Shown: in pieces, positions 328-60,101 of the stretch
Numbering within the stretch: the stretch's first letter is position 1
How the letters are laid out: each line of letters begins with the position of its first letter
Origin: Methylocaldum sp. 14B
GTDB lineage: Bacteria; Pseudomonadota; Gammaproteobacteria; Methylococcales; Methylococcaceae
Reading direction: 5' to 3'
Assembly: GCF_002005105.1 (NCBI RefSeq)
Contig: NZ_MSCV01000012.1
Location: forward strand, 62,001 to 126,000
Length of the DNA stretch: 64,000 nt
Notes under the pieces: generated by a model
Told to the model about the DNA's origin: nothing
The model's input: the letters and a program-made list of their open reading frames with translations, nothing else
The model's database searches: none
Made by a program: the position numbers and the translations under genes

Positions 328-700
328 GAGCATTTTCATACCTACTGTACGGGCATTCGCGCGTAGGTCGGGAATCCCTTCCCAATCGCAAACGGTCGCT
401 TTAGTCGCGACCCTTCCAATCGCAAACGGGCCTTTAATCGGCCCCTTCCAATCGCAAACGGTCATCCCAGCGCTCCTGGGATGACCGTTTGCGATTGGAA
501 CGCCGAAGCCGCCCTTCCCGACGGTGCAGTTGGGCCAACGGGTTCGTCGGCAAAGGATTGCCGACCTACAACCGTGCCGCCCTGTAGGTTGGGAATCCTT
601 TCCCGACGCCACCTGCCAACCGAGCGTCTTCGTCGGCAAAGGATTGCCGACCTACGAAAGCTTGAATCAATTTACCGTCGTCGAAGGCGCATCGCTTGTG
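326..700. mobile_element. Family A palindromic MITE, copy A1 (right end lost)
   Basis: The left end is TA-GAGCATTTTCATACC. The body consists of hairpin modules: GTAGGTCGG-type palindromes and CCAATCGCAAACG boxes separating hairpins at 394-412, 428-444 and 460-486. The usual right terminus (GAAAACGCTC-TA) is absent. The element instead merges near 690-718 into the remaining half of an attC site. Open reading frames here are palindrome artefacts. Confidence 0.8.
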
Positions 701-23256: not shown

Positions 23257-24523
23257 ATGGCTGAAGCAAATACACCGCCTGCCGCAGGTGGTCCGAAGTT
23301 GCTGGACCAGGTGCGTGCCCGCATCAGGGCGATACGATATTAGTAGGGAAACACAATATGTCCAGTGGATCAGGCGCTTTATCCTATTTAGCGGCAAACG
23401 CCATCCCCGCAACATGGGCATCGTCGAGGTGGAAGCGTTTCTTACTCATCTGGCGGTGGAAGGCAATGTTTCCGCCTCGACGCAAAATCAAGCCTTGGCG
23501 GCTCTCTTGTTTCTCTATCGAGAGGTATTGCGCCTCGACTTGCCGGGACTGAAGGACGTAGTTCGGGCTAGAGCATTTTCATATCTACTGTACGGGCACT
23601 CGCGAGTAGGTCGGGAATCCCTTCCCGACGCCACGTCCCGGCCGAGCGTCTTCGTCGGAAGGGTCGCGACTAAAGCGACCGTTTGCGATTGGAGCGCCGA
23701 AGCCCCCCTTCCCGACGCCACGTCCCGGCCGAGCGTCTTCGTCTGCAAAGGATTGCCGACCTACGAATGCTTGAATCAATTCACTCGAGCCGAAGGCGCC
23801 AACGACGTCCACCAAGCCGGTTTTGCCGTACGAGCGCGATGAAAACGCGCTAAGCGGCCGACGCGGTTGCCGACGGTGTTGACCCGTTCCGAGGTTCAAT
23901 CAGTGCTCGCCCGCATGGATGGCGTTTACGGGCTGATGGCGCGCTTGCTTTACGGAACCGGCATGCGATTGATGGAGTGCGTGCGCTTGCGGGTGAAGGA
24001 TGTGGACTTCGAGCGACGGGAAATTCTCATTCGCGATGGCAAGGGAGCCAAGGATCGGGTGACCGTGTTGCCGGAGAGTTTAAGAGTGGCGTTGCAGGCT
24101 CACCTTGCGGAGCGCCGCAAGCTGTATGAGCAGGATTCGGCCGAGGGGAAATCCGAGGTGTATCTTCCCGATGCCCTGGCGCGCAAGTATCCTCAAAGGC
24201 CGAAAGAGTGGGGCTGGCAGTATGTGTTTCCCTCCGGGAGCTGTTCGATCTATCCGCGCAGCGGTCGCGAGCGGCGGCATCATGTGGATGAAAAATTATT
24301 GCAGCGGGCCATGAAAAAAGTCGTCCAGGCTGCCGGAATAGCCAAGCCGGCGACGCCGCACACGTTGCGGCATAGTTTTGCCACGCACCTGATCGAAGGA
24401 GGCTACGACATCAGAACCGTCCAGGAACTGCTCGGACATAAGGACGTGAGCACGACCATGATTTATACCCATGTGCTGAATCGCGGCGGACGAGGCGTGG
24501 TTAGTCCGCTCGATCGGATGTGA
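23257..24523 (+). pseudogene. intI: Integron integrase, inactivated
   Basis: Tyrosine recombinase of the integron type: RAIRY..., YVQWIRRFILFSGKRHP, the Arg box [21 protein letters not shown], the integron-specific insert ([21 protein letters not shown]), and [11 protein letters not shown]...[19 protein letters not shown] with the H-R-H-Y residues. Two lesions are visible: a frameshift at about 23340 just after RAIRY (stop codons TAG TAG), and a 280-bp family A element at 23571-23850. Removing the element and one TA restores ...[17 protein letters not shown] exactly. The enzyme cannot be made as one chain. Confidence 0.94.
23569..23852. mobile_element. Family A palindromic MITE, copy A2, inside intI
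   Basis: 280-bp element with ends GAGCATTTTCATATC and GATGAAAACGCGC, bounded by TA on each side (one TA is the target duplication). It is the best-defined copy because the interrupted gene reveals the exact empty site. Confidence 0.92.
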
Positions 24524-36778: not shown

Positions 36779-36985
36779 GCATTCGTAGGTCGGCAATCCT
36801 TTGCCGACGCACCCGTTGGCCCAACTGTGCCGTCGGGAAGGGCGACTTCGGCGTTTGTGATTGGAAGGGTCGCGACTAAAGCGACCGTTTGCGATTGGAA
36901 GGGGCGTCCTGGCGCTCCCAGGACGGCCGTTTGCGATTGGGAAGGATTCCCGACCTACTCGCGAGTTCCCCTACAGTCGTCGGGG
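36779..36985. mobile_element. Family A MITE (subtype I), inverted partial copy A9
   Basis: Contains the GTAGGTCGGCAATCC module, hairpins at 36868-36886 and 36904-36928, and the sub-terminal CCTACTCGCGAGTTCCC; outer termini are eroded. Confidence 0.7.
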
Positions 36986-38915: not shown

Positions 38916-39066
38916 TTATTAACCCGACCTATAAATATAGGTCGGGTTAATCCGGGGCGGGGATGCCCCGGCGCGGCGACAAGCCGCGTGAGCCCAGGCC
39001 GGGCGTGTACCGGGCCTGGGCGGCGGCCCGAAATACCAGGAGGGTATTTACGGGCCTGATTAATAA
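38916..39066. repeat. Family B multi-hairpin element, copy 1
   Basis: 151 bp, ends TTATTAA and TTAATAA. Inside are four or five strong hairpins: ACCCGACCTAT..ATAGGTCGGGT, CCGGGGC..GCCCCGG, GCGGC..GCCGC, GCCCAGGCC..GGCCTGGGC, and AATACC..GGTATT. Nearly identical copy at 56274-56426. Looks like a structured RNA or a small single-strand transposable element. Confidence 0.8.
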
Positions 39067-39082
39067 TTTTTTTGAGGTACAC

Positions 39083-40414: not shown

Positions 40415-40700
40415 AGCATTTTCATATCTACTGTACGGGCACTCGCGCGTAGGTCGGGAATCCCTTCCCAATCGCAAACGATCGGTTCGGGAGCACCGAA
40501 CCGATCCTTCCAGGAGCGCCGAAGCCGCCCTTCCCGACGGTGCAGTTGAGCCAACGGGTGCGTCGGCAAAGGATTGCCGACCTACGAATGCTCCACGGCG
40601 ATTCCTCAGAAGTTTGCCATTTTGCGACTCAAGGTGTCGTAGGTCGGCAATCCTTTGCCGACGCCGGGCCGGGAAGGGATTCCCGATCTACGACGCCTTG
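40412..40700. mobile_element. Family A MITE (subtype I), copy A4, in tatC stop codon
   Basis: Left end TA-GAGCATTTTCATATCTACTG; hairpin GATCGGTTCGG/CCGAACCGATC at 40480-40506 between CGCAAACG and CTTCC boxes; palindromes GTAGGTCGGCAATCC later. Right terminus not clean. Confidence 0.78.
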
Positions 40701-49942: not shown

Positions 49943-50254
49943 TAGAGCATTTTTATACCTACTGTACGGGCATTCGCGAGTAGGTCGGGAATCCCTTCCC
50001 AATCGCAAACGGTCGCTTTAGTCGCGACCCTTCCCGACGCCGCCGTTGGGCCAAAGGGTTCGTCGGCAAGGGATTGCCGACCTACAACCATGCACCCTGT
50101 AGGTCGGGAATCCCTTCCCGACGCCACGTCCCGGCCACGCGTCTTCGTCGGCAAAGGATTGCCGACCTACGAATTGAAGCAATTCACCCGAGCCGAAGGC
50201 GCCACGACTTCCGCCAAGCCTGTTTTGCCGTACGAGCGAGATGAAAACGCTCTA
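49943..50254. mobile_element. Family A MITE (subtype I), copy A5
   Basis: TA-GAGCATTTTTATACC...GATGAAAACGCTC-TA, complete, 312 bp with TAs; contains the GGTCGC hairpin and several GTAGGTCGG palindromes. Confidence 0.88.
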
Positions 50255-56273: not shown

Positions 56274-56426
56274 TTATTAACCCGGCCTATAAATATAGGC
56301 CGGGTTAATCCGGGGCAGGGATGCCCCGGCGCGGCGACAAGCCGCGTGAGCCCAGGCCGGGCGTGTACCGGCCTGGGCGGCGGCCCGAAATACCAGGAGG
56401 GTATTTACGGGCCTGATTAATAATAA
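56274..56426. repeat. Family B multi-hairpin element, copy 2
   Basis: Same sequence as 38916-39066 with few changes (one G missing in the GTACCGGG stem; ATAGGCCGGGT for ATAGGTCGGGT compensates CGGCC for CGACC). Ends TTATTAA and TTAATAATAA. Confidence 0.8.
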
Positions 56427-56640
56427 GTTCGGTCGTCGAAAGTGTAAGCAGCGAAGACCGGAGCTTGGATATCTCCGCGCGATGCCGCCCGGTGTGTCGG
56501 TCTCGGGTGAAAACTTCACAGGGCTGTAATGGTTTCGGGTGTTTAATACGGTAAACCGAACGACGCATGCGGGTTGCCGGCGGATGCCTGGACAATGAAC
56601 CGCAAAAGCTGCGATCTCGTGTTCGAGTGGGATGAGGGGC
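56427..56640. other. Intergenic region, no gene seen
   Basis: No ORF or repeat recognised between family B and family C elements. Confidence 0.4.
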
Positions 56641-56743
56641 TAAGTACATTCAGGGAAGTCTTGCGGCATAGACAACCTGCAGGACAACCCCGCCAACCAA
56701 GCCAATCTGTCGAGATTCCGCAAATATTTGAGGAATGTACTTA
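56641..56743. repeat. Family C MITE-like element, copy 2
   Basis: TA-AGTACATTC...GAATGTACT-TA, 103 bp, almost identical to 225-327 and again directly followed by a family A element. Confidence 0.85.
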
Positions 56744-56899
56744 GAGCGTTTTTCATCCCGGTGTACGGCTTCGTGTCGGGCGGGAAAAACGTAGGTCGGC
56801 AATCCCTTGCCGACAAAATCCTTTGCCGAGCCGGTACGTCGGCAAGGGATTGCCGACCTACATATCGGGCTCTCTGACACCGAATTGGAAAATGCTCTA
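56742..56899. mobile_element. Family A MITE (subtype II), copy A6
   Basis: TA-GAGCGTTTTTCATCCCGG...GAAAATGCTC-TA, 158 bp with TAs; shares its left TA with the family C copy. Confidence 0.85.
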
Positions 56900-59836: not shown

Positions 59837-60101
59837 AGCGTTTTCCATCCCGGTGTACGGATTCGTTCCAGGAGGGGAGAACGTAGGTCGGCAATCCCTT
59901 GCCGACGTATCGGCTCGGCGAAGGGCTTTGTCGGAAGGGTCGCGACTAAAGCGACCGTTTGCGATTGGAAGGGGGACTTTGGTGCTCCCAAAGTTCCCGT
60001 TTGCGATTGGAAGGGTCGCGACTAAAGCGACCGTTTGCGATTGGCAAGGGATTGCCGACCTACATATCCGAATCCCTTACACCGATTCGGAAAACGCTCT
60101 A
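59834..60101. mobile_element. Family A MITE (subtype II/I mosaic), copy A7, in a stop codon
   Basis: TA-GAGCGTTTTCCATCCCGG...GAAAACGCTC-TA, 268 bp. Contains two GGTCGC-GACTAAA-GCGACC hairpins and one GGGACTTTGG/CCCAAAGTTCCC hairpin (59973-59998). Confidence 0.85.

Follow-up and report, generated by a model that had tools for sequence, protein, structure and literature searches.

What are the short conserved boxes that separate one hairpin from the next in a 64,000-nt stretch of Methylocaldum sp. 14B DNA (contig NZ_MSCV01000012.1, positions 62,001 to 126,000; the whole stretch is called the window here)? A preliminary description of this DNA took them for the interior of a MITE, in which every hairpin arm is self-complementary yet unrelated to the others. 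The hairpins it named are all present (461-485, 36904-36928, 59973-59998 and 40480-40506, with loop GYGCTCC), and so is its second class, which has the loop GACTAAA and arms GTCGC/GCGAC and GGCC/GGCC. Allowing two mismatches, 13 boxes are found in the window, compared with 3.0 expected from shuffled sequences (0 of 100 shuffles reach 13), and REP palindromes number 17, with 0.02 expected. The covariation reported for the flanking GTAG-type REP palindrome was also borne out, its arm position reading C..G or G..C in 96 of 100 counts, both strands counted. The features of the window are as follows.

363..381, plus strand: half of a GTAG-tagged REP (GTAGGTCGGGAATCCCTTC), host of the array insertion
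382..415, minus strand: 34-nt unit (S17; arms GTCGC/GCGAC, loop GACTAAA)
416..447, minus strand: 32-nt unit (S15; arms GGCC/GGCC, loop GATTAAA)
448..498, no strand assigned: long hairpin GTCATCCCAG-CGCTC-CTGGGATGAC with a box on each side, matching the nested array of locus L051 (4722-5001) minus its middle
546..565, plus strand: empty GTAG-REP palindrome GTCGGCAAAGGATTGCCGAC
23659..23692, plus strand: 34-nt unit
36852..36864, plus strand: degenerate box CGTTTGTGATTGG, remnant of a unit
36865..36898, plus strand: 34-nt unit
36899..36940, plus strand: 42-nt unit, arms GGCGTCCTGG/CCAGGACGGC
40468..40509, minus strand: 42-nt unit, arms ATCGGTTCGG/CCGAACCGAT, loop TGCTC
49999..50032, minus strand: 34-nt unit inside a GTAG-REP
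59935..59968, plus strand: 34-nt unit that opens a tandem of three; the insertion follows GTCGG in a GTAG-REP
59969..60010, plus strand: 42-nt unit, arms GGGACTTTGG/CCAAAGTTCC
60011..60044, plus strand: 34-nt unit, whose right junction GATTGG|CAAGGGATTGCCGAC restores an unmodified REP arm

The box CGTTTGCGATTGG closes a short unit, AAGG-[hairpin]-CGTTTGCGATTGG, on its 3' side, where it forms a tail of 13 nt. Three sizes were identified: the longest, of 42 nt, has 10-bp arms and the loop CGCTC or TGCTC; GACTAAA is the loop of both the 34-nt form, with 5-bp arms, and the 32-nt form, with 4-bp arms. The loop of the long form, described earlier as the 7-nt GYGCTCC, is better read as 5 nt, CGCTC or TGCTC, closed by a G-C pair. 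As single-stranded DNA, the 42-mer folds far better than its shuffles (z about -4.8), and on the unit strand of this fold AA/TT extend the stem past a G.G mismatch. Our unit catalogue takes in about a third of the genome's boxes; in it, 183 of the 231 boxes from the host genome and six relatives close an intact unit, and many of the remaining 48 belong to units split by another unit. The units occur singly, in head-to-tail arrays joined as TTGG|AAGG, and nested inside GTAG-REPs, CGTC-REPs and the loops of other units, the last of these in reverse orientation (as in GTCTTCGGG|unit|AGCGCCGAAG). Nested pairs are found repeatedly, as composites, at several loci; identical hairpins recur at many.

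The host genome (G000; 5.62 Mb, 84 contigs) holds 349 copies of CGTTTGCGATTGG with at most one mismatch, as against 2 for the reversed control. At the same threshold, 110 and 43 boxes were counted in two congeners (G003 and G001, respectively), and a longer pattern found 12 in the third (G002), so that each of the four genomes of the genus has units. They occur in certain other genera of the family as well, with several in G005 and G017 and one intact unit each in G016 and G007, and the 368 other genomes drawn across the class gave a single, chance-like match. A plasmid similarity search returned no match; one viral contig has the 18-mer with no hairpin unit there; and a text search of the literature for the box found no description. 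Weak Rfam matches over the arrays (SRP and a Wolbachia sRNA) fall below their gathering scores and were rejected. Along the complete genome of G003 there is no obvious strand bias of the units by inspection, the origin being unmapped. Many unit copies are identical, which indicates recent spread. The host is probably a methanotroph, judging from the pMMO/AMO genes found in G000, G001, G003, G017, and G012.

For the study of the arms, long units were selected by their lead, loop, and box only, which gave 87 distinct units, and these copies were examined with shuffled 3' arms and with MI-APC. Pairing was found in 89.9% of the arm cells, compared with 68.1% (sd 1.2%) when the 3' arms were dealt anew, and true stem pairs make up eight of the nine top-ranked MI-APC column pairs. 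The stems are therefore kept by compensatory change, as in GTAG-REPs and REPINs, and the proposal that base-pairing is selected or mechanically maintained is supported. Self-complementarity is not complete in every arm, however: mismatches occupy 10% of the arm cells, and just 31 of the 87 distinct long units are free of them. Nor are the arms unrelated, since 72 of the 75 distinct arm pairs join one single-linkage network at four or fewer changes in 20. Given the strong covariation and this single network, the stems drift under a pairing constraint. It has also been suggested that arm complementarity is kept mainly by template switching, with one arm copied from the other, a reading that bears on the arms alone and leaves room for mobility. 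Strong covariation would follow from it, and ten arm pairs do differ by one clean double change; in 42, however, the difference is confined to one partner of a single base pair, and whole subfamilies retain G.A or G.G mismatches at fixed positions, which efficient switching would erase. Because one-sided changes outnumber clean double changes, template switching is not called for; ordinary mutation with selection fits the one-sided pattern at least as well, and we regard switching as the main cause as quite improbable.

The insertion sites were studied by in-silico un-nesting, in which a script removes intact units step by step. This procedure removed 198 intact units at 115 sites and left intact host repeats: GTAG-REPs (GTCGGG|AAGGGATTCCCGAC), CGTC-REPs (CCCCGGCAGGG|AATGCCGGGG), a CCCTTCTCCCTCTGGG|AGAAGGG hairpin, and others. 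The target reads GG|(G)A, with G at -2 in 79, G at -1 in 77, and A or G at 0 in 81 of the 82 external sites. As in IS200/IS605-like elements, insertion lies 3' of a short fixed sequence, the ends are not inverted, and the hairpin is subterminal. The junctions carry GG on both sides; this GG may be a 2-bp target duplication, or part of the unit and part of the target, and because of the first reading a double-strand mechanism is also conceivable. We do not advance loop targeting as a general rule, given that GTAG-REP sites lie in the stem and that the overall median was 4.55 vs 3.9; in the same test, all the CGTC-REP sites (n=9) lay above the null's 95% point, which sites outside known repeats reached in 21% of cases, with 5% expected. 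In the window (59933-60060) and at L046, L051, and L065, filled REPs whose right arm is TTGCC mostly have G directly after the unit (GATTGG|GAAGGGATTGCCGAC) where the empty REP has C, and filled REPs are thus often mispaired.

Units were also found inside coding genes. In a dnaE2-type gene of G000, with PHP and polymerase domains, GAATTCCGATTGG is followed by nested and tandem units that total 126 nt (42 codons) and keep the frame; no REP surrounds them. The corresponding site is empty in the congeners, where G002 reads GAATTCCGATTGGAAAATGG and retains a GATTGG target, and G001 and G003 read GAATTCCGGCTAGAAGACGG; these three genomes have 88-90% identical DnaE2 proteins that lack the insertion. 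In-frame units also occur in G005, in genes for a sulfite reductase, a Cas_NE0113 protein, a CusB/HlyD-type fusion protein, and others, and G000 and G002 share a 33-nt unit that keeps the frame close to the N terminus of an outer-membrane efflux protein. Insertions in frame within conserved protein genes, of the kind known from Rickettsia, are thus found in the dnaE2 of G000 and several genes of G005, and the unit supplies conserved genes with in-frame insertions of 14 codons.

These insertions bear on the idea of a MITE interior. It could be argued that the units are parts of one larger MITE or BIME whose arrays differ by unequal recombination and internal deletion rather than by transposition of units. 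Many units do belong to REP composites found repeatedly as blocks; whole composites have been gained or lost, such as the ~570 bp of L051 in G000 that are absent from G001; and some arrays have the appearance of deletion products or chimeras (448-498 in the window; L047/L048). At 448-498, a nested array seems to have lost its middle and left the long palindrome; L051 shows the array without the deletion. However, units that stand alone in genes, or within unrelated hairpins of other genera, have the same exact ends and the same target, and the dnaE2 units stand outside any REP, so that we give the larger-element explanation very little credence. Moreover, the unit ends (AAGGG.. and ..CGATTGG) are not mutual inverted repeats, as the terminal repeats of a classical MITE would be. 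Un-nesting to intact repeats, together with the in-frame units in genes, indicates that the 32-42-nt units, which recur as such, are separate mobile mini-elements inserting at GG|(G)A in many hosts, and not the interior of one MITE.

The same evidence weighs on the view of the region as an array with self-complementary spacers. A regulatory or structural RNA array (a small RNA, or one of CRISPR type) selected for a host function might account for the regular tandem spacing and the RNA-like loops. Nevertheless, identical hairpins turn up at many loci, unlike the unique spacers between constant repeats of a CRISPR-like array; units are inserted inside unrelated coding genes; and no Rfam family at gathering score covers them. 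An array of this kind therefore seems highly improbable to us.

The window contains further repeats and mobile-element features. A 130-nt element, with copies at 223-352 and 56639-56768 that are 89% identical, stands at the edge of REP/unit composites; its ends resemble AAGTACATTC repeats, and it may be a true MITE. A near-identical repeat of ~150 nt with several palindromes is present at 38916-39067 and 56274-56424. Between 2000 and 24500, repeats that end in GTTAGGC/GTTGTTAGGC and start with AACGTT or GCCTAACGTT are spaced over ~20 kb and look like attC sites of a chromosomal integron; within this stretch lie group II intron domains RF02001 and RF01998 (19781-20152), and a tyrosine recombinase domain is located at 23876-24478 (G000:C12:85876-86478). 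Elsewhere, at L035 (196-283), a c-di-GMP-I riboswitch (RF01051) lies near a unit array.

With respect to the mechanism, we consider it probable that the units constitute a family of very small non-autonomous mobile elements, most likely moved by single-strand (Y1/HUH-type) transposition, a conclusion drawn from comparisons of sequences. According to this model, the unit would move as a folded single strand, recognized by the shape of its stem and by its fixed loop and tail. Insertion takes place after the GG of a GG|(G)A target. Since the junction of unit end and unit start reads ..TTGG|AAGG.., a unit is itself a target, and head-to-tail tandems result; the complement of the long loop reads GGGAGCG and offers a target in reverse orientation, from which nests result. 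A Y1 (HUH) transposase of the IS200/IS605-RAYT superfamily would mobilize the unit in trans, and selection for a foldable substrate would keep the arms complementary while their sequence drifts. Selection would tolerate insertion in intergenic hairpin repeats and, in genes, the in-frame 42-nt (14-codon) form; no benefit to the host would be required. It has been reported that TnpA-REP tolerates stem swaps as long as pairing is kept (PMC8266576), and compensatory stem changes have been described in REPINs (PMC3116915); an enzyme of the Y1 type that reads shape would therefore produce the pattern seen in the units.

Seven Y1 genes were found in G000, and Y1 genes are present in five of the six unit-bearing relatives searched, the exception being G016, which has one unit and no Y1_Tnp match. 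This exception and the lack of an obvious strand bias in G003 count against the model. We looked for a REPtron, and no Y1 gene flanked by units appeared among the loci read in G000 and its relatives (for G003, part of its Y1 loci), which is why the enzyme is inferred. Three RAYTs of G000 sit between GTAG-REPs, and a CGTC-REP encloses the only unit array close to a RAYT (L070). At L210 in G003 a unit does stand near a broken Y1 gene, but beside a different, GTAG-REP-like hairpin, and this candidate was rejected. The RAYT gene at L073 (G000:C21:80217-80537), located between many GTAGGTCGGCAA/GTAGGTCGGGAA REPs, is likely the REPtron for the REPs of the window.

The main rival to Y1 transposition holds that the same mobile unit spread by RNA- or retro-type copying, in which a transcribed hairpin is reverse-transcribed, or was copied through recombination. 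A close analogy is provided by yeast mitochondrial GC42; RNA- or recombination-mediated copying has been proposed for the GC clusters of those mitochondria (PMC4478555). Two further observations point the same way: on the unit strand, G.T pairs exceed A.C mismatches (37 to 22), in keeping with a folded RNA or with one strand of DNA, and the window has group II intron motifs. Against this route, both orientations of the unit are inserted in one cluster, and the units have sharp ends with no signs of priming or poly-A. We hold these copying routes to be unlikely, and single-strand transposition to be the better account.

The origin and spread of REP-like palindromes, and the existence of a transposase for CGTC-type repeats, have been considered open questions (PMC3733652). 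In the units one has a smaller element that looks active: its ends are exact, its target rule is simple, its nested layers preserve the succession of insertions, and congeners differ in its presence or absence. It invites the question of how small a piece of DNA a transposase can move. Tentatively, and with slightly more doubt than confidence, we propose that they could be a third class of tagged mobile palindromes beside GTAG- and CGTC-REPs: a one-hairpin substrate of 32-42 nt that jumps into its own loop and tail, its enzyme encoded elsewhere, its stem free in sequence and fixed in shape.

Among known systems, the very small mobile repeats of cyanobacteria, which Elhai and others reportedly described in 2008 as a few tens of nucleotides long, are likened to the units by description only, and differ in sequence and host. 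Rickettsia palindromic elements (RPE) are also palindromic repeats in frame in conserved genes, insertions of the RPE-1 type being longer than 42 nt; the units are shorter (42 nt), tandem, and self-nested. RPE-4 and RPE-6 have been classed as REPs (PMC3733652). With GTAG-REPs and REPINs, which RAYT (TnpA-REP) transposases mobilize (PMC3733652, PMC3116915, PMC8266576), the units share a short palindrome with a fixed tag, hundreds of copies, compensatory stem changes, a stem read largely by shape (in the units, putatively), and presence inside genes, including those of DnaE2 polymerases. In contrast, the flanks of the unit are AAGG and CGTTTGCGATTGG rather than a GTAG tetranucleotide; there is one hairpin instead of an inverted doublet, as seen in the single units in genes (L104, L134) and the head-to-tail tandems and nests; the target is GG|(G)A; and no cognate REPtron was found among the loci read. 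CGTC-REPs are likewise tagged palindromes without a dedicated transposase (PMC3733652), and in G000 they host units, which differ from them in having no CGTC tag at the palindrome end, other stems and loops, and a 13-nt tail. Yeast mitochondrial GC42 clusters are 42-nt palindromes flanked by a 2-nt AG repeat (PMC4478555); the likeness lies in the hairpin of ~42 nt, the 2-nt junction motif, the merging and shuffling of clusters, and the lack of a known transposase, and the difference in the host, a bacterium rather than an organelle, with no evidence of common origin. The units thus share features of REPs and REPINs, of in-frame palindromic elements, and of GC clusters, and they lack the GTAG and CGTC tags, inverted doublets, and, among the loci read, a REPtron.
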